In this document: piece by piece, positions 3,250 through 26,960 of the stretch
Layout of the letters: each line of letters begins with the position of its first letter
Position numbering within the stretch: the stretch's first letter is position 1
Source of the DNA: Gammaproteobacteria bacterium
Lineage (GTDB): Bacteria > Pseudomonadota > Gammaproteobacteria > Pseudomonadales > Pseudohongiellaceae
Length of the DNA stretch: 54,720 nucleotides
NCBI GenBank assembly: GCA_029242705.1
Contig: JAQWTK010000106.1
Span: forward strand, 1 to 54,720
Direction: 5' to 3'
Notes under the pieces: model-generated
The model's database searches: none
What the model was told of the DNA's origin: nothing
Seen by the model: the letters and a program-made list of their open reading frames with translations, nothing else
Position numbers and translations under genes: made by a program

Positions 3250-4755
3250 ATGAAACTTTCGCTGCAATTAAAGATTGGCCAACAGCTAACTATGACGCCG
3301 CAGTTGCAACAAGCGATTCGGCTACTTCAGCTATCTACATTAGATTTGCAACAAGAGATTCATCAAGCTTTAGAATCAAACCCAATGCTTGAACTCATTG
3401 AAAATGCTGATGAAGATGACCAAATTTCGCATGAAGATATCAACACTCCTTCTGTTGAAAAACTGGGATCTCAGGAGAATATAACTTCTCACGAAGGACA
3501 ATCTAAAAATGAGGAAATCTCAAGTTGGGAGGAGCAGATACCTAGCGAGCTCTCAGTCGACAGTGACTGGAACGATGTTTATCCCGATACTTACCCATCC
3601 AAAACCTCTTACAATCTTGATTCGAGCGATTATGAATCTAGAAGTACAATGATAGAAACCCTACAAGACCACCTACTATGGCAATTAAATCTAACCCCCA
3701 TGTCCGAGAAAGACCAATCAATTGCGCTTACAATTATAGATGCTATTGACCCAAACGGCGCGTTAACTACTGATATCGAATCTATTCATGCGGGCTTAGA
3801 CACTGAACTCGAAACCGAGCCAGATGAAGTAATTGCCGTACTCCATAGAATTCAACAGTTTGACCCAGTAGGTGTGGGCTATCGAGACCTTACAGAATGT
3901 CTTTTAATCCAACTTAATCAATATGAAAATCCAAACCAAAGCAAGCACATTACCCAGGCAAAATACATTGTCAAAAACCATATAAATCTTCTTGGGAAAA
4001 AAGACTATGCTCAATTGATGCGAAAAACTAAGCTTGAAGAAAACGAATTAAAAGAAATAGTCACAATAATTGAAAGTCTTGACCCCCGGCCGGGAGCAAA
4101 TATATCTCCGCCGTCAACTACTTATGTAGTGCCTGATGTAATTGTCACAAAACAACTCGGATCGGAAAAATGGAAGGTTGAGCTTAATCCAGATACCACA
4201 CCAAAAATCCGAATAAATGATGATAATGCTTCATTGGTAAAAAAGCAGTCCTCTAGCGCAGATAAAGATTATCTTAGAAATAACTTACAAGAAGCTCGCT
4301 GGTTTATAAAAAGTCTTCAGAGCCGCAATGACACCCTACTAAAGGTGTCCTCTCGTATAGTAGAGCATCAAGAAGAATTTCTAGAACACGGAGACGAGGC
4401 GATGAAACCACTGGTTCTCCAAAATATCGCGGAATCTGTAAGCATGCATGAATCAACAATTTCTCGAGTAACTACGCAAAAGTATATGCATACACCTCGA
4501 GGCATCTATGAATTGAAATATTTCTTCTCTAGCCATGTATCAACGAAAGGTGGAGGTGAATGTTCATCTACCGCTATAAGAGCAATCATTAAGAAAATTA
4601 TTGCATCTGAAAATACACGTAAGCCACTGAGTGATAGCAAGATTACTTCTCTTTTAGAAGAAAAAGGAATCAATGTGGCCCGCCGGACTATCGCCAAGTA
4701 TCGAGAATCTCTCGCAATACCACCTTCAAATGAACGCAAACGATTGGTTGGATGA
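3250..4755 (+). CDS. rpoN: RNA polymerase sigma-54 factor RpoN
   Basis: Sigma-54 directs RNA polymerase to GG/GC (-24/-12) promoters and needs an AAA+ enhancer-binding activator. The 501-aa protein has the Gln/Leu-rich region I ([20 protein letters not shown]) and an acidic region II (about residues 50-130). The core-binding region follows, then the C-terminal RpoN box ([11 protein letters not shown], about residues 475-485). Its presence matters locally because a CbrB-like activator and a sigma-54-type promoter occur at 23.6-25.2 kb. Downstream come ptsN and HPr, but hpf and rapZ, which usually sit beside rpoN, are absent here. Confidence 0.97.
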
Positions 4756-7839: not shown

Positions 7840-8145
7840 ATGTCTGACAACAATGCTCAGTCCTATTGGAAATCAAATATAAAAATTGTACTAGCATTAC
7901 TCTCAGTGTGGTTCTTCATATCATTCGGTTGTGGAATATTATTTGTAGATACACTAGACAATATCCGTTTTGGTGGATTTAAATTAGGCTTCTGGATTGC
8001 TCAGCAAGGGTCTATCTTCGTTTTCGTCGCACTTATATATATCTATATTTATTTTATGGACAAGCTTGATGCGAAATATAACCTAGAATCCACAAAATTA
8101 GAAAAAATCTCCGAAGAATATAGTTTAGAGGAAGATAAAAAATGA
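7840..8145 (+). CDS. Small subunit of two-component sodium/solute symporter (DUF4212)
   Basis: The 101-aa protein has two membrane helices (about 16-40 and 52-73), as expected of DUF4212 proteins. These are always encoded immediately before a large SSS-family permease. The short polar N-terminus includes the family segment SYWKSNI. A GGFKLGFW segment links the helices, and the tail is charged and cytosolic. Its stop overlaps the start of the permease gene in an ATGA arrangement at 8142-8145, so the two are translationally coupled. It is preceded by a good AAAGAGG ribosome-binding site. It is presumed to be needed for stability or activity of the large subunit. Confidence 0.92.
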   Translation: MSDNNAQSYWKSNIKIVLALLSVWFFISFGCGILFVDTLDNIRFGGFKLGFWIAQQGSIFVFVALIYIYIYFMDKLDAKYNLESTKLEKISEEYSLEEDKK

Positions 8146-9830
8146 GCGTTCAAATTTGGACTTTCGTATTTATCTTCTTAACTTTTGGGTTGTATATTGG
8201 TATAGCAATAAAGTCTAGAGCAGGATCGACTAGTGAGTTTTATGTGGCAGGTAGCGGGGTTCCGCCTCTTGCAAATGGCATGGCGACAGCTGCCGATTGG
8301 ATGTCCGCAGCATCATTCATCTCTATGGCAGGGCTCATTTCTTTTCTAGGTAGAGATGGTACTTTTTATTTAATGGGCTGGACCGGCGGTTATGTTCTCT
8401 TAGCATTGTTATTAGCTCCATACCTTAGAAAATTTGGAAAATTTACTGTCCCAGATTTTATCGGCGATCGTTATTATTCAAAAACTGCAAGGTTAATTGC
8501 AGTTTTTTGTGCCATAACTATCTCCTTCGTATATGTATGCGGCCAAATGCAAGGCGCCGGTATAGTATTTTCCAGATTTCTAGAAGTAGATATAACAACT
8601 GGTGTCGTTATTGGCATGGCTATCGTTTTTTTCTATGCAGTAATGGGCGGCATGAAGGGAATTACTTACACACAAGTTGCCCAATACTGCGTATTAATCT
8701 TTGCATTTATGGTGCCGGCTATCTTTATTTCGATACTTATGACTGGAGTCCCTATCCCTCAAATCGGATTTGGTTCTGAATTAACAGAAGGTTTTGGAGG
8801 AGGCTATCTACTCGACAAGCTAGATGGGATGAGTGAAGAGCTTGGTTTTGCAACCTACACCGAAGGTCAACGATCAACACAAGATGTTTTTTTTATCACG
8901 GCAGCTCTCATGTTTGGCACTGCTGGGCTCCCTCATGTAATTATACGATTTTTTACAGTCCCTAATGTTCGCGATGCACGCCGCTCCGCTGGATACGCCC
9001 TAATCTTTATCGCAATTTTATACACAACTGCGCCCGCAGTGGCCGCTTTTGCAAAAACCAATCTCATTAATACAGTTAACAACGTAGAGTACACTTCAGT
9101 TCCTGAATGGTTTACCAAATGGGAAGCAACCAATCTGATTAGCTTTAATGACAGAAATAATGACGGGCGTATTCAATATTTAGGTGACCCTGAAGCCAAC
9201 GAACTAGAGGTAAATCGGGACATAATGGTACTAGCAAATCCTGAAATCGCTGGATTGCCTAACTGGGTTGTTGCTCTAGTTGCTGCTGGAGCTCTTGCAG
9301 CAGCACTATCCACTGCTGCAGGATTACTACTCGTAATATCCACTGCGGTAGCACACGACCTTATGAAAAGAAGTTTTTTGCCGGCCATCTCGGAGCGTCA
9401 AGAATTATTGTATGCGAGAATAGCAATCTTTATAGCAGTGATCATTGCAGGATACGTCGGTATCAACCCACCCGCTTATGTTGCTCAAGTCGTGGCCTAT
9501 GCGTTCGGTTTAGCGGCCGCATCTTTTTTCCCAGCAATCGTTTTAGGAATATTTAATAAACGAATGAATAAGCAAGGCGCTATCACAGGTATGCTCGCCG
9601 GATTCTTATTCACCGCTAGCTATATTATATATTTTAAGACCTTAAACCCATCATTGGATAACGCTGACGGCTGGCTTTTAGGTATCTCTCCCGAGGGTAT
9701 TGGCACTTTGGGCACAATTGTGAATATGGCTTCTTCCTATATAGTATCTAGGTTTACGCCAGAGCCACCCAGAGAAGTACAAGAGATTGTTGAAAATATT
9801 AGATTACCCGGCGAAGTTACTGAACGTTAA
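8142..9830 (+). CDS. Sodium:solute symporter, large subunit (SSS family, VC_2705/ActP-like)
   Basis: This is a 562-aa inner-membrane Na+-coupled symporter of the SSS family, with about 13 predicted helices. The N-terminal segment STSEFYVAGSGVPPLANGMATAADWMSAASFISM is the core Na+/substrate region of the ActP-like subgroup. Carboxylates such as acetate, pyruvate or lactate are the known substrates of relatives, but the exact substrate cannot be read from sequence. Residues about 326-375 form an extracytoplasmic insertion that contains an EF-hand-like loop, DRNNDGRI (Asp337, Asn339, Asp341, Ile344). It is encoded with the DUF4212 small subunit. Confidence 0.92.
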   Translation: MSVQIWTFVFIFLTFGLYIGIAIKSRAGSTSEFYVAGSGVPPLANGMATAADWMSAASFISMAGLISFLGRDGTFYLMGWTGGYVLLALLLAPYLRKFGKFTVPDFIGDRYYSKTARLIAVFCAITISFVYVCGQMQGAGIVFSRFLEVDITTGVVIGMAIVFFYAVMGGMKGITYTQVAQYCVLIFAFMVPAIFISILMTGVPIPQIGFGSELTEGFGGGYLLDKLDGMSEELGFATYTEGQRSTQDVFFITAALMFGTAGLPHVIIRFFTVPNVRDARRSAGYALIFIAILYTTAPAVAAFAKTNLINTVNNVEYTSVPEWFTKWEATNLISFNDRNNDGRIQYLGDPEANELEVNRDIMVLANPEIAGLPNWVVALVAAGALAAALSTAAGLLLVISTAVAHDLMKRSFLPAISERQELLYARIAIFIAVIIAGYVGINPPAYVAQVVAYAFGLAAASFFPAIVLGIFNKRMNKQGAITGMLAGFLFTASYIIYFKTLNPSLDNADGWLLGISPEGIGTLGTIVNMASSYIVSRFTPEPPREVQEIVENIRLPGEVTER

Positions 9831-17803: not shown

Positions 17804-18160
17804 ATGCCCAGGCTTACAAAAACCGAGATCAACCATTTAAAGATTACCCTCGAACGCTTAAAAGAAGAGTTAAAAGAACAAGTAAGCCAAAGTGAAAGCT
17901 CCACTAAAATAGTAACCTTAGATCAAACATTAATTGGCCGTCTTTCAAGAGTAGATGCTATGCAGCAACAAAATATGGCTATATCTACTCGCCAAAAAAA
18001 GGCATTCAGGTTGAGAAAAATTCAAATTGCACTGGAATCAATACGAATGGAAAACTACGGATATTGCGACAAATGTGACGATGCGATCGGATATGCAAGA
18101 TTGAATGTCCAACCAGAAGCTAATTTATGTATTAACTGCCAAGACAAGGCAGACCAATAG
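17804..18160 (+). CDS. Short DksA/TraR-family zinc-finger protein
   Basis: The 118-aa protein has a coiled-coil segment followed by a four-Cys zinc finger: YCDKCDD (about residues 87-93) and LCINCQD (about 108-114). The coiled-coil tip reads LDQTLIGRLSRVDAM. It lacks the DxxDxA signature of true DksA, which is encoded separately at 22064-22507. It therefore belongs to the TraR/DksA group of secondary-channel binders, whose role is often unknown. It may bind RNA polymerase without ppGpp synergy. It is 31 bp after the unknown membrane protein. Confidence 0.88.
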   Translation: MPRLTKTEINHLKITLERLKEELKEQVSQSESSTKIVTLDQTLIGRLSRVDAMQQQNMAISTRQKKAFRLRKIQIALESIRMENYGYCDKCDDAIGYARLNVQPEANLCINCQDKADQ

Positions 18161-21741: not shown

Positions 21742-22063
21742 AGTTCGACACTTTTATATTGATGAGTCTATATAATTCGCCATTATAGATGATGCTTTTT
21801 CGGGAGCGGTAGACTTAATATTGCATTAATCCATATCATTTCTTAACCAGAAATCGATCTCAACTTTTTTATAGCATCAAGATTAAGAATCTGTTAGGTT
21901 ACCCAGCTTTTAGAAAATCGTAGATAATTGAGTACAAAAGTTTAGCTTTTTAGCTTGGTTATTAAGGTTATAAAACAATTTAGACACCATGGGCCGTTAA
22001 GCTTACTAAAACTCAGGTATACTTCCTTCGGGTCATGGTAACAACAAATAGGCACCGGCGATT
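21742..22063. other. Divergent intergenic region, aminotransferase / dksA
   Basis: No gene is seen in this 322-bp AT-rich stretch. It must hold divergent promoters. A TATACT at 22018-22023 is a candidate -10 for dksA. A GC-rich TCCTTCGGG just after it would make a stringent-type discriminator. No good -35 box is evident. I see no riboswitch or terminator. Confidence 0.5.
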
Positions 22064-22507
22064 ATGTCCAAGTCAACTAACTCTGATTCTCAGCCAGTTT
22101 TAAAGAATTTCAAGCCCTATAAACCTAAAAAGGGCGAAGAGTATATGAACGAAAAACAACAAGGCCATTTTAAAAAGATATTACTAGATTGGCGCGAACA
22201 ACTTATGCAAGAAGTAGATAGAACGGTGCACCACATGCAAGATGATGCCGCCAACTATCCTGACCCAGCAGATCGCGCTACTCAGGAAGAAGAATTCAGC
22301 CTAGAACTAAGAACCCGGGATCGTGAGCGCAAATTAATCAAAAAAATAGATAGTACTATCGAGTCACTAGCTCAAAATGACTACGGTTTCTGCGAATCTT
22401 GTGGCATAGATATTGGTATCCGTCGGCTAGAAGCTCGGCCAACAGCCGATAAATGCATAGATTGTAAAACGCTTGATGAAATTAAAGAAAAACAACTCGG
22501 TAGCTAA
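22064..22507 (+). CDS. dksA: RNA polymerase-binding transcription factor DksA
   Basis: DksA enters the RNA polymerase secondary channel and works with ppGpp in the stringent response. The 147-aa protein has the coiled coil with the conserved tip [12 protein letters not shown], containing the Asp and Ala residues needed for activity. A C4 zinc finger follows (FCESCG ... KCIDCK, about residues 109-134). The N-terminal 30 residues are basic and typical. Downstream lies gluQ, as in many gammaproteobacteria. It is distinct from the shorter DksA-like protein at 17804-18160. Confidence 0.96.
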
Positions 22508-22602: not shown

Positions 22603-23520
22603 TTGGCTGTGAATGTTCAATCAAATCAGACCCAAGCTAATTATATTGGACGATTTGCACCGTCTCCAACTGGCCCCCTGCATCTTGGCTCATTAATCGC
22701 TGCTGTAGCTAGCTATGTTGATGCCAAATCGAAAAATGGAATTTGGGTTTTACGTATGGAAGATTTAGACCCGCCAAGAGAACCTCCTGGCACTGCGGAT
22801 CTCATACTAGACCAATTATATGCTTTAGGTATTCAATGGGATGGGGAAGTCCTGTATCAAAGTTCTCGGATAAATGCATATCGCGAAATCTTGAAGCAAT
22901 TATCGAAAGAAGAGCTCTGTTATCCATGTGGTTGCACGAGATTACAGATTAAGGCCATGGGATCCGTATATAATGGCTCATGTAGAAACCACACAGTTTC
23001 TCTTCACAAAAAGTTCGCAATACGCGTTAAAACATTTAATAACTTAATTGGGTTTAACGATAAAATTCAAGGACATCACCAACAAAACGTAAGAAAAGAA
23101 GTTGGCGATTTCATAGTTATGCGAAAAGATAGCTTGTTCGCGTACCAATTAGCGGTAGTCGCAGACGACAGTTACCAAAAAATTACCGATGTTATACGCG
23201 GGTACGATTTGATTGATTCAACTCCTCGCCAAATTCATCTTCAAAAAGTTCTTGGTTTTAAAACACCAAAATATGCACACATCCCGATTATTTTAAACGA
23301 CAAAGGCCATAAATTGAGCAAGCAAAATTTTGCGACTCCAATAGAGCCAACAGATGGAAATAAACTTATATTTCAATCACTTAAATATCTCGGCCAAAAT
23401 CCGCCTTCATCAATAGAGAGAGCTTCTACCGATGAGCAGCTTCAATGGGCAATCTCTAATTGGGATATACATGCCATACCTAAGTTAGCTAATATCAGAG
23501 AAAATCCGAAGAGAATGTGA
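22603..23520 (+). CDS. gluQ: Glutamyl-Q tRNA(Asp) synthetase
   Basis: The enzyme attaches glutamate to queuosine at position 34 of tRNA-Asp. The 305-aa protein is a truncated class-I GluRS lacking the anticodon-binding domain. The HIGH-like motif is in APSPTGPLHLGSLIA (about residues 20-34), and the KMSKS-like motif is HKLSKQN. The zinc site is CYPCGCTRLQ plus the later Cys in GSCRNH. It appears to start at a TTG (22603), or a GTG two codons later. It sits between dksA and the CbrB-like gene, matching the Pseudomonas order. Confidence 0.94.
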   Translation: MAVNVQSNQTQANYIGRFAPSPTGPLHLGSLIAAVASYVDAKSKNGIWVLRMEDLDPPREPPGTADLILDQLYALGIQWDGEVLYQSSRINAYREILKQLSKEELCYPCGCTRLQIKAMGSVYNGSCRNHTVSLHKKFAIRVKTFNNLIGFNDKIQGHHQQNVRKEVGDFIVMRKDSLFAYQLAVVADDSYQKITDVIRGYDLIDSTPRQIHLQKVLGFKTPKYAHIPIILNDKGHKLSKQNFATPIEPTDGNKLIFQSLKYLGQNPPSSIERASTDEQLQWAISNWDIHAIPKLANIRENPKRM

Positions 23521-23582
23521 TGATTTTGTGTTAATTTGTAATCATCTTATATTTAAACAAAATAGTTTTTCTAAGAATATAT

Positions 23583-24956
23583 ATGATAGCGACGAAAGAT
23601 ATCCTTGTAGTTGAAGCCGATGAAGTCACTCGGAATGCTTTGAAATTACTTCTTGCGCAGTACAAATATAGTGTTAATGAAGCTCGTTCTATCAAAGAAT
23701 CTTTAGAAAAATATGACGTTGATAGCTTTGATGTCATTGTTAGTGATTTAAATCTACCTGATGGTCTAGGAACTGACTTAATTAAAATCACAAATACACC
23801 CGTCCTAATAATGACTAGATACTCCAGCATTCGCTCCGCAATCGACACCATAAAGATGGGGGCAGCTGACTATATTGCGAAGCCATTTGACAATAATGAA
23901 ATTATAGAGGCTGTCGTCAGATTAATTTCAGAAAAAGAAAATAAAAAGGGTTCGTTCAATAGAAACGAAGATCAAGAACCTCCGGTTCAAGGAATGGTAG
24001 GACGCTGTCCTCAAATGATGGAATTGTTTCGTCGTATAAGAAAGGTTGCGCAAACAAGTTCTACTGCCTTAGTAAATGGAGAATCCGGAACTGGTAAAGA
24101 ATTAGTCGCGAAAGCAATCCATGATCTCAGTACACGTAAAAAGCAAGAAATGATTTCAGTAAATTGTGCTGCCATTCCAGAAAATTTGATCGAATCAGAA
24201 TTATTCGGTCACGAGAAAGGGGCTTTCACTGGCGCGACAGCGACCCGAACTGGACTAGTTGAAGCAGCACATGGTAGTACTTTATTCCTAGATGAGATTG
24301 GCGAGCTTCCGCTTGAAGCCCAGGCGAGATTGCTGAGAGTGCTGCAAGAAAATGAAATTCGAAAGGTTGGCTCGGTCCAATCTACTAAGGTGGATGTGCG
24401 ATTGGTTGCGGCTACACACAGAGATTTAAAGCAGCTTGTTATTGATGGGGATTTTAGGGAAGACCTATACTACCGGATCAATGTTATGACTCTGTTAATC
24501 CCTCCCCTAAGAGATAGAGGCAATGACATCTTAGAATTAGCAGAGATAAAGCTTAAAAGAACTTGTAGTCGATTAGAGGCACCTACGCTGAATTTTAGCG
24601 AAGGAGCGAATACAGCAATAATCAGTTACAGTTGGCCAGGCAACGTTAGAGAATTGGAGAATGCTATTGAGCGTGCCGTGGTATTGGTAGAAGGAAGTGA
24701 AATTGGTGAAGAATTACTTGCCATAGAGGCGGAATCAACGATCGAAGTAAGAGAAAGCAGCTCAGAAACAACAAGCCTAAATGAAAATTATAATGAAGGG
24801 CTATCCCTCCAAGAATACTTCCAAAGATTTGTTTTGGAGCACCAGGGCTTCTTAAATGAAACTCAGCTTGCTGAAAAATTAGGTATTTCTCGAAAATGCC
24901 TTTGGGAAAGACGCCAAAAGTTTGGAATTCCACGCAAGAAAAAAGAATCAGCCTGA
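23583..24956 (+). CDS. Sigma-54-dependent response regulator, CbrB-like (orphan)
   Basis: This 457-aa NtrC-type activator has three domains: receiver (1-120), AAA+ (about 138-370) and a Fis-type HTH (about 425-450, ETQLAEKLGISRKCLWERRQ). In the AAA+ domain the Walker A is GESGTGKE and the sigma-54-contact loop GAFTGA is intact. The receiver has the phosphoacceptor Asp55 (VSDLNLPDG), the Thr in IMTRYS and the Lys in YIAKPF. The acidic pocket reads V-E11-A12-D13, with Ala where the Mg2+-coordinating Asp belongs. The receiver resembles Pseudomonas CbrB as I remember it, and the neighbourhood (dksA-gluQ upstream, pcnB-panBC-acs downstream) is the CbrB one. No CbrA sensor kinase is encoded beside it. 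Its likely target is the adjacent sRNA promoter. Confidence 0.88.
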   Translation: MIATKDILVVEADEVTRNALKLLLAQYKYSVNEARSIKESLEKYDVDSFDVIVSDLNLPDGLGTDLIKITNTPVLIMTRYSSIRSAIDTIKMGAADYIAKPFDNNEIIEAVVRLISEKENKKGSFNRNEDQEPPVQGMVGRCPQMMELFRRIRKVAQTSSTALVNGESGTGKELVAKAIHDLSTRKKQEMISVNCAAIPENLIESELFGHEKGAFTGATATRTGLVEAAHGSTLFLDEIGELPLEAQARLLRVLQENEIRKVGSVQSTKVDVRLVAATHRDLKQLVIDGDFREDLYYRINVMTLLIPPLRDRGNDILELAEIKLKRTCSRLEAPTLNFSEGANTAIISYSWPGNVRELENAIERAVVLVEGSEIGEELLAIEAESTIEVRESSSETTSLNENYNEGLSLQEYFQRFVLEHQGFLNETQLAEKLGISRKCLWERRQKFGIPRKKKESA

Positions 24957-25056: not shown

Positions 25057-25103
25057 TGTTACCGCTACATATATACACATTATTATCGGGTATAAATGTA
25101 ACA
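25057..25103 (+). promoter_or_regulatory. Inverted repeat, candidate activator (UAS) site for the sRNA promoter
   Basis: TGTTAC (25057-25062) and its reverse complement GTAACA (25098-25103) are centred 41 bp apart, about four helical turns. They lie 98-144 bp upstream of the predicted sRNA start. Sigma-54 activators bind paired upstream sites at such distances. That CbrB binds here is an inference; I do not rely on a remembered CbrB consensus. Confidence 0.4.
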
Positions 25104-25174: not shown

Positions 25175-25193
25175 TTGGCATGGTAAGTGCATT
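25175..25193 (+). promoter_or_regulatory. Sigma-54 (-24/-12) promoter
   Basis: The sequence TTGGCATGGTAAGTGCATT matches the sigma-54 consensus TGGCACG-N4-TTGCA at all but two positions. The invariant GG (25177-25178) and GC (25189-25190) are separated by exactly 10 bp. The predicted start is near 25201. It is followed by the A-rich sRNA and lies next to a sigma-54 activator gene. Confidence 0.72.
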
Positions 25194-25200
25194 CTTTATC

Positions 25201-25446
25201 TATGAAAATAACAACAAACAATAATAAGAACCTATATAATAATAAAAGTAGCACTACCTATTTCTAATACTAAGGTTAGTGCGTAAACAATAACAATGGT
25301 GGGTTTAAAGCCAAGGTCTGTAACTTGCTTGCCTAACTGATAATTACCATCATAAGACCATAAGATGCTGTATTTAGCATCCACATAAGTGTTAATAACA
25401 AGAATGATAGAGATATTTCAGATGGGGTGATTTTCACCCCTTTTTT
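25201..25446 (+). ncRNA. Putative CrcZ-like Hfq/Crc-sequestering small RNA
   Basis: The predicted transcript is about 246 nt, from the sigma-54 promoter to an intrinsic terminator. It has ten exact AANAANAA matches (the Hfq/Crc-binding A-rich motif) in four clusters: 25207-25230 (five overlapping), 25238-25245, 25286-25296 and 25394-25404. The 5' cluster resembles the ACAACAA-rich start of Pseudomonas CrcZ. Hairpins lie between the clusters. A 9-bp stem with one bulge pairs 25251-25259 with 25273-25282. A 6-bp GATGCT/AGCATC stem occupies 25364-25381. This gives single-stranded A-rich tracts separated by stems. There is no credible ORF. Location between a cbrB-like gene and pcnB is that of crcZ. 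The Pseudomonas RNA is longer (about 400 nt). Confidence 0.7.
25424..25446 (+). terminator. Intrinsic terminator of the CrcZ-like RNA
   Basis: A perfect 7-bp stem, GGGGTGA paired with TCACCCC (25424-25430 and 25434-25440), has a TTT loop. It is followed directly by TTTTTT and a further T-rich stretch. It is the clearest intrinsic terminator in the window and lies in an intergenic region where no protein-coding gene ends. Confidence 0.88.
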
Positions 25447-25607: not shown

Positions 25608-26960
25608 ATGAATTTCGAATCAGAATTAGTTGGCACAGAAAAAGCGGATGTTATAAACCGTGATAGACATTCTGTGTCGCGCAAAGATATAGCGCCTAAT
25701 GCTCTAAAAGTACTTTATAGGCTTATGAATGCCGGTTTTCATGCATATATAGTCGGAGGTGGTGTACGCGATTTGTTGTTGGGCCGCAAACCTAAAGATT
25801 TTGATATCGCCACAAATGCCACCCCTGAGGACATAAAAAACCTATTCAGAAATGCACGCGTTATCGGAAGACGTTTTAAGATAGTCCATATCAAATTTGG
25901 AAGAGAAATTATAGAGGTAACAACTTTTCGAGCAAATCACGCTCGCAAACATCAAGTATTAGATGGATCAACCAGGAAACAAATCAAAGGATTAGACTCA
26001 GCGCATTCGGAATCAGGGATGATTCTTCGCGATAATGTCTATGGAAATATCGACGAAGATGCTATGCGTCGTGATTTTACCGTTAATGCGCTTTACTACA
26101 CCACCAATGGTTTTAGAGTGCTAGATTTTTGCTCTGGACTGAAAGATATAGAGTCAAGACAAATCCGAATGATCGGCAACCCCGCAGAAAGATATAAAGA
26201 AGACCCCGTTCGAATGCTGCGCGCTATTCGTTTATCTGCAAAATTGGGGTTCTCCATAGAACGAGAGACAGAAAAACCCATAGATGAACTATCTTATCTT
26301 TTAGATTCAATTTCTTCGGCTCGACTTTTTGATGAAACTTTAAAATTAATGACCGGAGGCCACGCTAGTAAAACATTTAAATTACTCCAAAAATTTCAGC
26401 TCGGAAGTTATTTGTTTGCACCGACACTTGAAGCATTAAAGGAGTCCGATACTAGTGCTGCAAATCTTGTGGACCTAGCATTAAAGAATACGGATGAGCG
26501 CTTGGCAAACGGAAAATCTGTCACTCCGGCATTCTTGTTTGCCTCATTACTGTGGCCTGTGCTTAAACTAACTATAGCGAAAAGTAAAAATTTAGGGCTC
26601 CCTCCTCGAACATCGTTCCAGCAAGCAGCAAAATTAGCTCTTAAGGAACAACTAGATTACACAGCTATTCCTAAACGATTTACTATAGCAGCTCAAGAAA
26701 TCTGGGAATTACAAGATAGATTAAGAATTCGTACTAAACGAAATATAGAAAAAATATTCAACCATTCTCGGTTTCGAGCAGCTTATGATTTTCTGTTACT
26801 ACGAGAACAATCTGGTGAAGAACTACAAGATCTAGGCCAATGGTGGACGGATTTCCAAATTGGTGATAAAAATAAAAGATCGGAGCTGATAGCCATGGTG
26901 ACTAAATCACAAAAACATCGTAAAAAGCGAAGTAAAGACATACCTAGCAAAGGTATTTGA
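25608..26960 (+). CDS. pcnB: Poly(A) polymerase I PcnB
   Basis: PcnB adds 3' poly(A) tails that promote RNA decay. The 450-aa protein has the class-II nucleotidyltransferase core: YIVGGGVRDLLLGRKPKDFDIATNATPE with the metal-binding Asp pair (about residues 47-74), and the second motif EDAMRRDFTVNALYY (about 152-166). RNA-binding motifs with RMLRAIRLSAKLGF follow, and the tail is basic (KHRKKRSKD). The length is normal. Its stop overlaps the TTG start of the deoxynucleoside kinase gene. Confidence 0.95.
   Translation: MNFESELVGTEKADVINRDRHSVSRKDIAPNALKVLYRLMNAGFHAYIVGGGVRDLLLGRKPKDFDIATNATPEDIKNLFRNARVIGRRFKIVHIKFGREIIEVTTFRANHARKHQVLDGSTRKQIKGLDSAHSESGMILRDNVYGNIDEDAMRRDFTVNALYYTTNGFRVLDFCSGLKDIESRQIRMIGNPAERYKEDPVRMLRAIRLSAKLGFSIERETEKPIDELSYLLDSISSARLFDETLKLMTGGHASKTFKLLQKFQLGSYLFAPTLEALKESDTSAANLVDLALKNTDERLANGKSVTPAFLFASLLWPVLKLTIAKSKNLGLPPRTSFQQAAKLALKEQLDYTAIPKRFTIAAQEIWELQDRLRIRTKRNIEKIFNHSRFRAAYDFLLLREQSGEELQDLGQWWTDFQIGDKNKRSELIAMVTKSQKHRKKRSKDIPSKGI

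Follow-up and report, generated by a model that had tools for sequence, protein, structure and literature searches.

The interval between cbrB and pcnB in a marine gammaproteobacterial metagenome-assembled genome (MAG) very likely encodes, at positions 25201-25446, a short CrcZ-type RNA that would titrate Hfq and be driven by CbrB and sigma-54, in a setting that seems to lack the cognate sensor and a Pseudomonas-type Crc. The analyzed stretch of DNA (54,720 nt; hereafter, the window) represents contig 105 out of 109 in a MAG of 2.46 Mb that is 90% complete (G000). The assignment to the CrcZ type is based on the density of A-rich motifs, the location between cbrB and pcnB, the sigma-54 promoter, and the CbrB half-sites at crcZ-like spacing. 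The initial annotation had already proposed a short CrcZ-type RNA in a different, marine lineage, a reading that is supported by the place, the promoter, the half-sites, and the conserved A positions; the loss of cbrA had been overlooked.

Genomic context of the putative RNA

The neighboring genes are, in order, dksA, gluQ-RS, the gene for a CbrB-like activator, pcnB, a deoxynucleoside kinase gene, panB, panC, and acs. The families of gluQ-RS, pcnB, and acs were assigned by family search, and the genes that we take to be panB and panC were named from sequence. The putative RNA occupies the interval between cbrB and pcnB, the location characteristic of CrcZ (RF01675), and thus adjoins the activator gene as originally described. 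The claim that the locus lies outside Pseudomonas-type gene sets did not hold: gluQ-RS, cbrB, RNA, and pcnB, followed by panB, panC, and acs, is what we take to be the Pseudomonas order, here without cbrA. The features of the window are as follows (all except the junction on the forward strand):

3250..4755, +, rpoN (sigma-54), required by the promoter
22603..23520, +, gluQ-RS, upstream flank (family search)
23521..23582, no strand, 62-bp junction between gluQ-RS and cbrB, occupied in most relatives by cbrA (about 3 kb)
23583..24956, +, CbrB-like sigma-54 activator with a decayed receiver (Ala12 for the Mg2+-ligand Asp)
25057..25062, +, putative CbrB half-site F, TGTTAC, -118 from the promoter start
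25098..25103, +, putative CbrB half-site R, GTAACA, -77 from the promoter start
25175..25191, +, predicted sigma-54 (RpoN) promoter, -24/-12, TTGGCATGGTAAGTGCA (regular expression; 71 of 74 intervals)
25201..25446, +, putative CrcZ-type small RNA of about 246 nt, with the 5' end placed according to the promoter
25207..25230, +, A-rich cluster 1, with five AANAANAA that overlap, hardly varying among 32 relatives
25238..25245, +, A-rich cluster 2 (motif scan, alignment)
25251..25282, +, hairpin GCACTA...TAGTGC, conserved, separating cluster 2 from cluster 3 (RNAalifold)
25286..25296, +, A-rich cluster 3 (motif scan, alignment)
25394..25404, +, A-rich cluster 4 (motif scan, alignment)
25424..25446, +, predicted intrinsic terminator, GGGGTGA-TTT-TCACCCC and T6
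25608..26960, +, pcnB, downstream flank (family search)

Two DksA-family genes are present in the window (17804-18160 and 22064-22507), only the second of which passes the curated DksA cut-off, and a AACAACAA motif at 22040-22047, located 17-24 nt ahead of the dksA start, is a possible Hfq site. On the same contig as acs, positions 7840-9830 encode a small membrane protein and a sodium/solute-symporter-like permease, presumably an acetate permease pair.

A CbrB match with an E-value of 1e-80 or better was found in 118 of the 119 sampled genomes of the family. From the named-collection loci retrieved in a CbrB protein search, the best 80 of 91 were taken; 73 of these contain both cbrB and pcnB and, together with the window, make up the 74 cbrB-pcnB intervals compared here, all of which carry between 8 and 24 AANAANAA motifs. 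The titles of the relatives' records read Pseudohongiella, OM182, Pseudomonadales, or simply Gammaproteobacteria, and on this basis the family is referred to here as Pseudohongiellaceae. Two other records, titled as Klebsiella pneumoniae (L080) and Rhodoferax (L096) MAGs, contain a cbrA-cbrB-RNA-pcnB locus resembling those of the Pseudohongiella relatives, and these titles look wrong.

Sigma-54 promoter and CbrB half-sites

The promoter reported in the initial annotation is present, with GG at 25177-25178 and GC at 25189-25190 separated by 10 nt. Although the sigma-54 consensus scan alone was not significant (four sites with at most one mismatch versus 4.2 expected), the site at 25175 was its only exact match. 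Across the 74 intervals, the regular expression identified a sigma-54 promoter in 71, with a doubtful match in L047 and none in L063, L065, and L069; in L065 and L069, the two half-sites are present at a spacing of 40 nt, along with a degenerate promoter. AANAANAA motifs are sparse ahead of the promoter (at most two in all 71 cases), and 8-24 occur within 430 nt after it. A parallel scan for sigma-70-like sites yielded nothing above chance (2 versus 4.2 expected) and these were set aside.

Within 200 bp upstream of the 71 promoters, exact TGTTAC was found in 67, exact GTAACA in 66, and the pair in 63; the usual positions are about -119 and -78, respectively. The eight loci of family f21 (presumably, Pseudomonadaceae) that exceed the Rfam cut-off for CrcZ all have TGTTAC at -121 to -124, with GTAACN at -79 to -81 in seven and at -87 in one, and most of them have a further GTAACN near -102. 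In four loci of families f2 and f35, TGTTAC is located at -142, and GTAACN occurs near both -121 and -88. For Pseudomonas putida CbrB, one F and two R subsites have been described (PMC6296734). Most f21 loci have a middle R1 subsite, for which the window shows no exact GTAAC. A sigma-54 promoter preceded by CbrB subsites, a hallmark of CrcZ, is found in the window, and the rpoN gene lies inside the window as well.

Apparent loss of CbrA and decay of the CbrB receiver

Among the 74 relative loci that contain both gluQ-RS and cbrB (not counting six further loci cut by contig ends), 70 encode a long CbrA between these two genes, three encode a short CbrA (L051, L065, and L087), and one (L110) encodes none. 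The window likewise has no cbrA between gluQ-RS and cbrB, and the cognate CbrA that accompanies CbrB in the CbrA/CbrB system is not found beside it. With a full CbrA as query, the window's genome yielded only generic kinases (kinase-core identity, 26-29%), and the genome that contains L110 (G102) yielded one kinase at 28%. Because the MAG is 90% complete, an unlinked gene for CbrA or Crc could be missed. One of the 70 long CbrAs, that of L042 (2678-5921), is matched in two pieces about 400 nt apart, indicating a broken or interrupted sensor gene.

The CbrA of L035 matches PDB entry 10ED, the SLC5-STAC structure of CbrA (PMC13022988), over residues 13-603, and Pfam detected only the kinase domains of this protein. 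The short CbrAs of L051 and L087 retain HisKA and HATPase along with a PAS match, which in L051 falls below the Pfam cut-off, and are a natural parallel of the engineered CbrA lacking the transporter part, which is described as inactive when expressed from its own promoter and as activating when overproduced (PMC6591292, PMC7918813). In a tree of 72 loci, the window and L110 group together (support 1.0) inside the loci with a long CbrA (0.984), apart from both L051+L065 (1.0) and L087. This placement implies that CbrA was probably reduced on three separate occasions.

The CbrB-like protein of the window contains a receiver, a sigma-54 ATPase domain, and a DNA-binding domain, the latter identified by alignment with relatives only. 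Position 12, which by comparison with CheY we take to be the second residue of the Mg2+-binding acidic pair, is Ala in the window and L110 and Asp in all 78 other sequences that have a letter there (11 have none); at position 13, the same two sequences have Asp in place of Glu. The phospho-acceptor Asp55, Thr78, Lys100, and GAFTGA are all kept in the window. Thirteen columns that are at least 97% conserved elsewhere are changed in both the window and L110, nine of them in the receiver (Fisher test, p 0.0007, a rough guide given that all columns were counted and the two sequences are sisters). For the receiver, the identity to the five closest loci with cbrA amounts to 0.69 in the window and 0.66 in L110, compared to 0.92 among these five. 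For the ATPase domain, the respective values are 0.84, 0.85, and 0.90, and for the DNA-binding end, 0.84, 0.87, and 0.96, so that the latter drops also, albeit less than the receiver.

As judged from the sequences, kinase loss and receiver decay coincide in a single lineage, in which the half-sites, the promoter, and the putative RNA persist. The receiver of the window and its sister is probably no longer phosphorylated well, and considering both this change and the missing CbrA, CbrB of this lineage is most likely a phosphorylation-independent activator. Such a step appears plausible because CbrB of P. putida is described as barely phosphorylation-dependent (PMC6296734), and unphosphorylated CbrB is reported to keep 40% of its activity in vitro (PMC8871633, section 2.2). 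A variant of this explanation, which we consider unlikely, is that the circuit was rewired and CbrB is still switched by phosphorylation, through an unlinked kinase or small-molecule phosphate donors. The retention of Asp55, Thr78, and Lys100 and the presence of other histidine kinases in the genome are compatible with this possibility, whereas the replacement of the otherwise invariant Asp by Ala at position 12 in both cbrA-less genomes argues against it; the role of the RNA would be the same in either case.

A-rich motifs and structure of the RNA

The putative RNA contains ten AANAANAA motifs starting at 25207, 25210, 25217, 25220, 25223, 25238, 25286, 25289, 25394, and 25397. AANAANAA corresponds to the CA motif, AAnAAnAA, that marks targets of Hfq/Crc (PMC3003667, PMC12533007), and the presence of several such motifs is a feature of CrcZ. 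The ten exact motifs in four clusters listed in the initial annotation were confirmed, and no other part of the window matches their density, which also exceeds that of all shuffled sequences: none of the other separate 246-nt stretches contains at least eight motifs (108,948 stretches, both strands), and none of 5000 dinucleotide shuffles of the RNA stretch reached ten, the maximum being six. Thus, the motifs are not explained by A-richness. At the gene starts of the window, AANAANAA shows no clear enrichment, with 5 of 41 cases compared to 5.5% of random 60-nt stretches (raw proportions).

Conservation was analyzed in an alignment of 33 sequences selected from 58 non-redundant ones, after exclusion of 25 that were mostly more distant. 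In the 32 relatives, identity to the window is 97% at the A positions of its motifs, 40% at the N positions, and 51% in the other columns, a pattern shaped like a predicted Hfq site. Taken together, the motif evidence is strong, and the RNA would most likely titrate Hfq. The aligned RNA stretches are 238-290 nt long; in the two Marinobacter loci, the end lies further downstream, near 390 nt. We consider it improbable that the RNA instead acts in trans by base-pairing, with A-rich stretches that just recruit Hfq and no decoy function. The central region (about 25300-25390) varies among relatives and could hold lineage-specific seeds, but conservation is concentrated at the A positions, and the central part contains no strongly conserved candidate seed.

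The RNA stretch folds with a minimum free energy of -48.7 kcal/mol (z -2.15). The hairpins described between the clusters were recovered in part: the one at 25251-25282 is supported by RNAalifold in relatives, whereas no other, besides the terminator, is kept. This hairpin is nearly invariant (99.5% of cells paired) and, because it hardly varies, lacks covariation support; in the terminator stem, three pairs show changes on both sides. For the two helices together, the paired fraction is 95.8% and the covariation score is 0.133, neither of which was reached in 500 shuffles. However, related sequences can beat shuffles without any structure, and pairs slid by one column score 0.155, above the predicted structure itself, so that the evidence of RNA structure is modest.

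The perfect terminator with T6 is present in the window as annotated, and conservation of the A-rich clusters or the terminator, on which the initial annotation had staked its reading, extends to the A positions and to the G-rich 3' hairpin but not to the T-run. The hairpin was detected in 69 of 71 loci by a rule that is silent on the T-run; the T-run is weak in most relatives, being detected in 20 of 71 loci under a strict rule and in 25 under a looser one, in one case (L073) after another hairpin.

The number of motifs in the 58 non-redundant sequences ranges from 8 to 20, and both the window and L110 lack an A-rich block that is found in most aligned relatives (A2 columns 210-224). Combined with the loss of cbrA, the decayed receiver, and the count of ten motifs in the window, this could suggest a relic, that is, a circuit decaying after the loss of cbrA, with the RNA no longer made or used. 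Such a scenario seems quite improbable because both cbrA-less genomes retain the half-sites, the promoter, the 5' A-rich block, and the terminator hairpin, and the ATPase domain of CbrB is still conserved. That the stretch is a long pcnB leader with an attenuator rather than a separate RNA, as might be imagined given that pcnB is on the same strand and starts 162 nt past the terminator, is highly improbable in view of the dedicated sigma-54 promoter and CbrB half-sites, the terminator well ahead of pcnB, and the absence of motifs on this strand of the window both ahead of the promoter and past the terminator.

Comparison with the Rfam CrcZ family

The RNA was searched with the Rfam CrcZ model and with a family-specific model, both suggested in the initial annotation. 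The gathering score of RF01675 (95 bits) was reached neither in the window (12.5 bits) nor in any of seven relatives. Model R1, built on the 5' part of the RNA of the Pseudohongiellaceae family, found one place per genome in all seven genomes searched, including that of the window. With at most 150 candidates scored in each of these seven genomes, R1 detected no second, CrcY/CrcX-like copy. At more distant loci of the family, R1 scores are lower, with E-values of 0.1-0.4 at L120, L122, and L123, and the model misses crcZ in L112-L119, L121, and the Marinobacter locus L107, which suggests that the RNA body diverged whereas the place and the control regions did not. Other Rfam families, sraA among them, gave better but weak hits to the stretch (E up to 10); these fall largely on the terminator hairpin and the A/T-rich flanks, score far below their cut-offs, and were dismissed as chance matches.

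Among 244 sampled genomes of the order, RF01675 matched 50 at an E-value of 0.001 or better, 11 of them above the cut-off, and weak matches near 1e-4 may be due to chance. In five genomes of genus g4 of the family, a sub-cut-off match (E 1e-7 to 1e-9) lies directly downstream of cbrB. No RF01675 matches in this sample came from the window's genome or from G004, G012, and G033.

Hfq and Crc

The window's genome encodes Hfq, in which, by alignment with P. aeruginosa Hfq, Tyr25 and Gly29-Gln33 are kept and Asn28 is replaced by Ser. Xth/Crc (exodeoxyribonuclease III) family proteins were identified in 110 of the 119 genomes of the family and not found in the remaining nine, which are 73-92% complete: that of the window and G092, G096, G101, G102, G112, G007, G040, and G052. 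A protein query gave the same negative result for the window's genome, G102, and G096 and a positive one for G115 and G061. The alignment comprised six Crc-like copies and one Xth, all from relatives; the six Crc-like copies keep the catalytic residues QET, DWN, and SDH, compared to QDT, SLY, and SQH in P. aeruginosa Crc, and for the two that were searched against the PDB the best match is 2jc5, which we take to be a Neisseria-type exonuclease, followed by Crc. Thus, a Pseudomonas-type Crc without the nuclease residues was not seen among the six copies of relatives, and the 90%-complete genome of the window yielded no family member.

Discussion

We infer the following mode of action. CbrB would bind the half-sites at -118 and -77 and drive transcription from the sigma-54 promoter, and the transcript would end at the terminator (25424-25446). 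The four A-rich clusters would then bind to the distal face of Hfq, the surface contacted by CrcZ in P. aeruginosa (PMC4063720), and Hfq titrated off A-rich ribosome binding sites would leave catabolic genes derepressed. In the window's lineage, the input would no longer come from CbrA, no Pseudomonas-type Crc would act as co-repressor, and CbrB of the window and its sister would activate independently of phosphorylation, with the output set by the level of CbrB and by RpoN. The complete scheme, in which a stripped-down circuit combines a regulator with a decayed receiver, free of sensor and phosphorylation, with a short CrcZ-type decoy RNA and Hfq titration in a cell without Crc, is put forward tentatively, as a realistic possibility.

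The putative RNA resembles CrcZ of Pseudomonas and Azotobacter (RF01675) in its place between cbrB and pcnB, sigma-54 promoter, half-site distances, AANAANAA clusters, and 3' hairpin, and differs from it in length, about 246 nt versus 407 nt (PMC4063720), in scoring below the Rfam threshold, and in the lack of a second copy detectable with R1. By place and apparent design, and not by Rfam score, it is of the CrcZ kind. Similarly, as in the CbrA/CbrB system of Pseudomonas, a CbrB-like activator adjoins the RNA and relatives possess a long CbrA, whereas the window has lost cbrA and the receiver Mg2+ ligand, and CbrA is short in L051, L065, and L087. The resemblance to Hfq/Crc repression consists in the conserved distal-face residues of Hfq; unlike in that system, the Crc-like copies of relatives keep nuclease residues and the window's genome shows no member of the family.

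A 2022 review states that CbrAB is unique to Pseudomonadaceae (Pseudomonas and Azotobacter), with no orthologous system described (PMC8871633). At the sequence level, this confinement does not hold for the sampled Pseudohongiella/OM182 and Marinobacter loci: a long CbrA, CbrB, half-sites, and promoter occur together in Pseudohongiella sp. O18 (L068), P. nitratireducens (L084), LSUCC0112 (L097), and Marinobacter pelagius (L107). In the portion of the open-access PMC literature covered, we found no report of CrcZ or CbrAB outside Pseudomonadaceae; transcripts of cbrA and cbrB have been described in a mesopelagic metatranscriptome, in an account of these transcripts that does not name Pseudohongiellaceae (PMC5073097).

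Thus, a CbrB-CrcZ-type unit appears to be spread across the sampled Pseudohongiella/OM182 relatives and Marinobacter, and the sensor-less circuit is a new form of this system. The occurrence of a long sensor, a short sensor, or no sensor under the same promoter architecture provides natural experiments on the signal of CbrA and on the need of CbrB for CbrA, and suggests that the Hfq-decoy RNA can be uncoupled from both the sensor and Crc.
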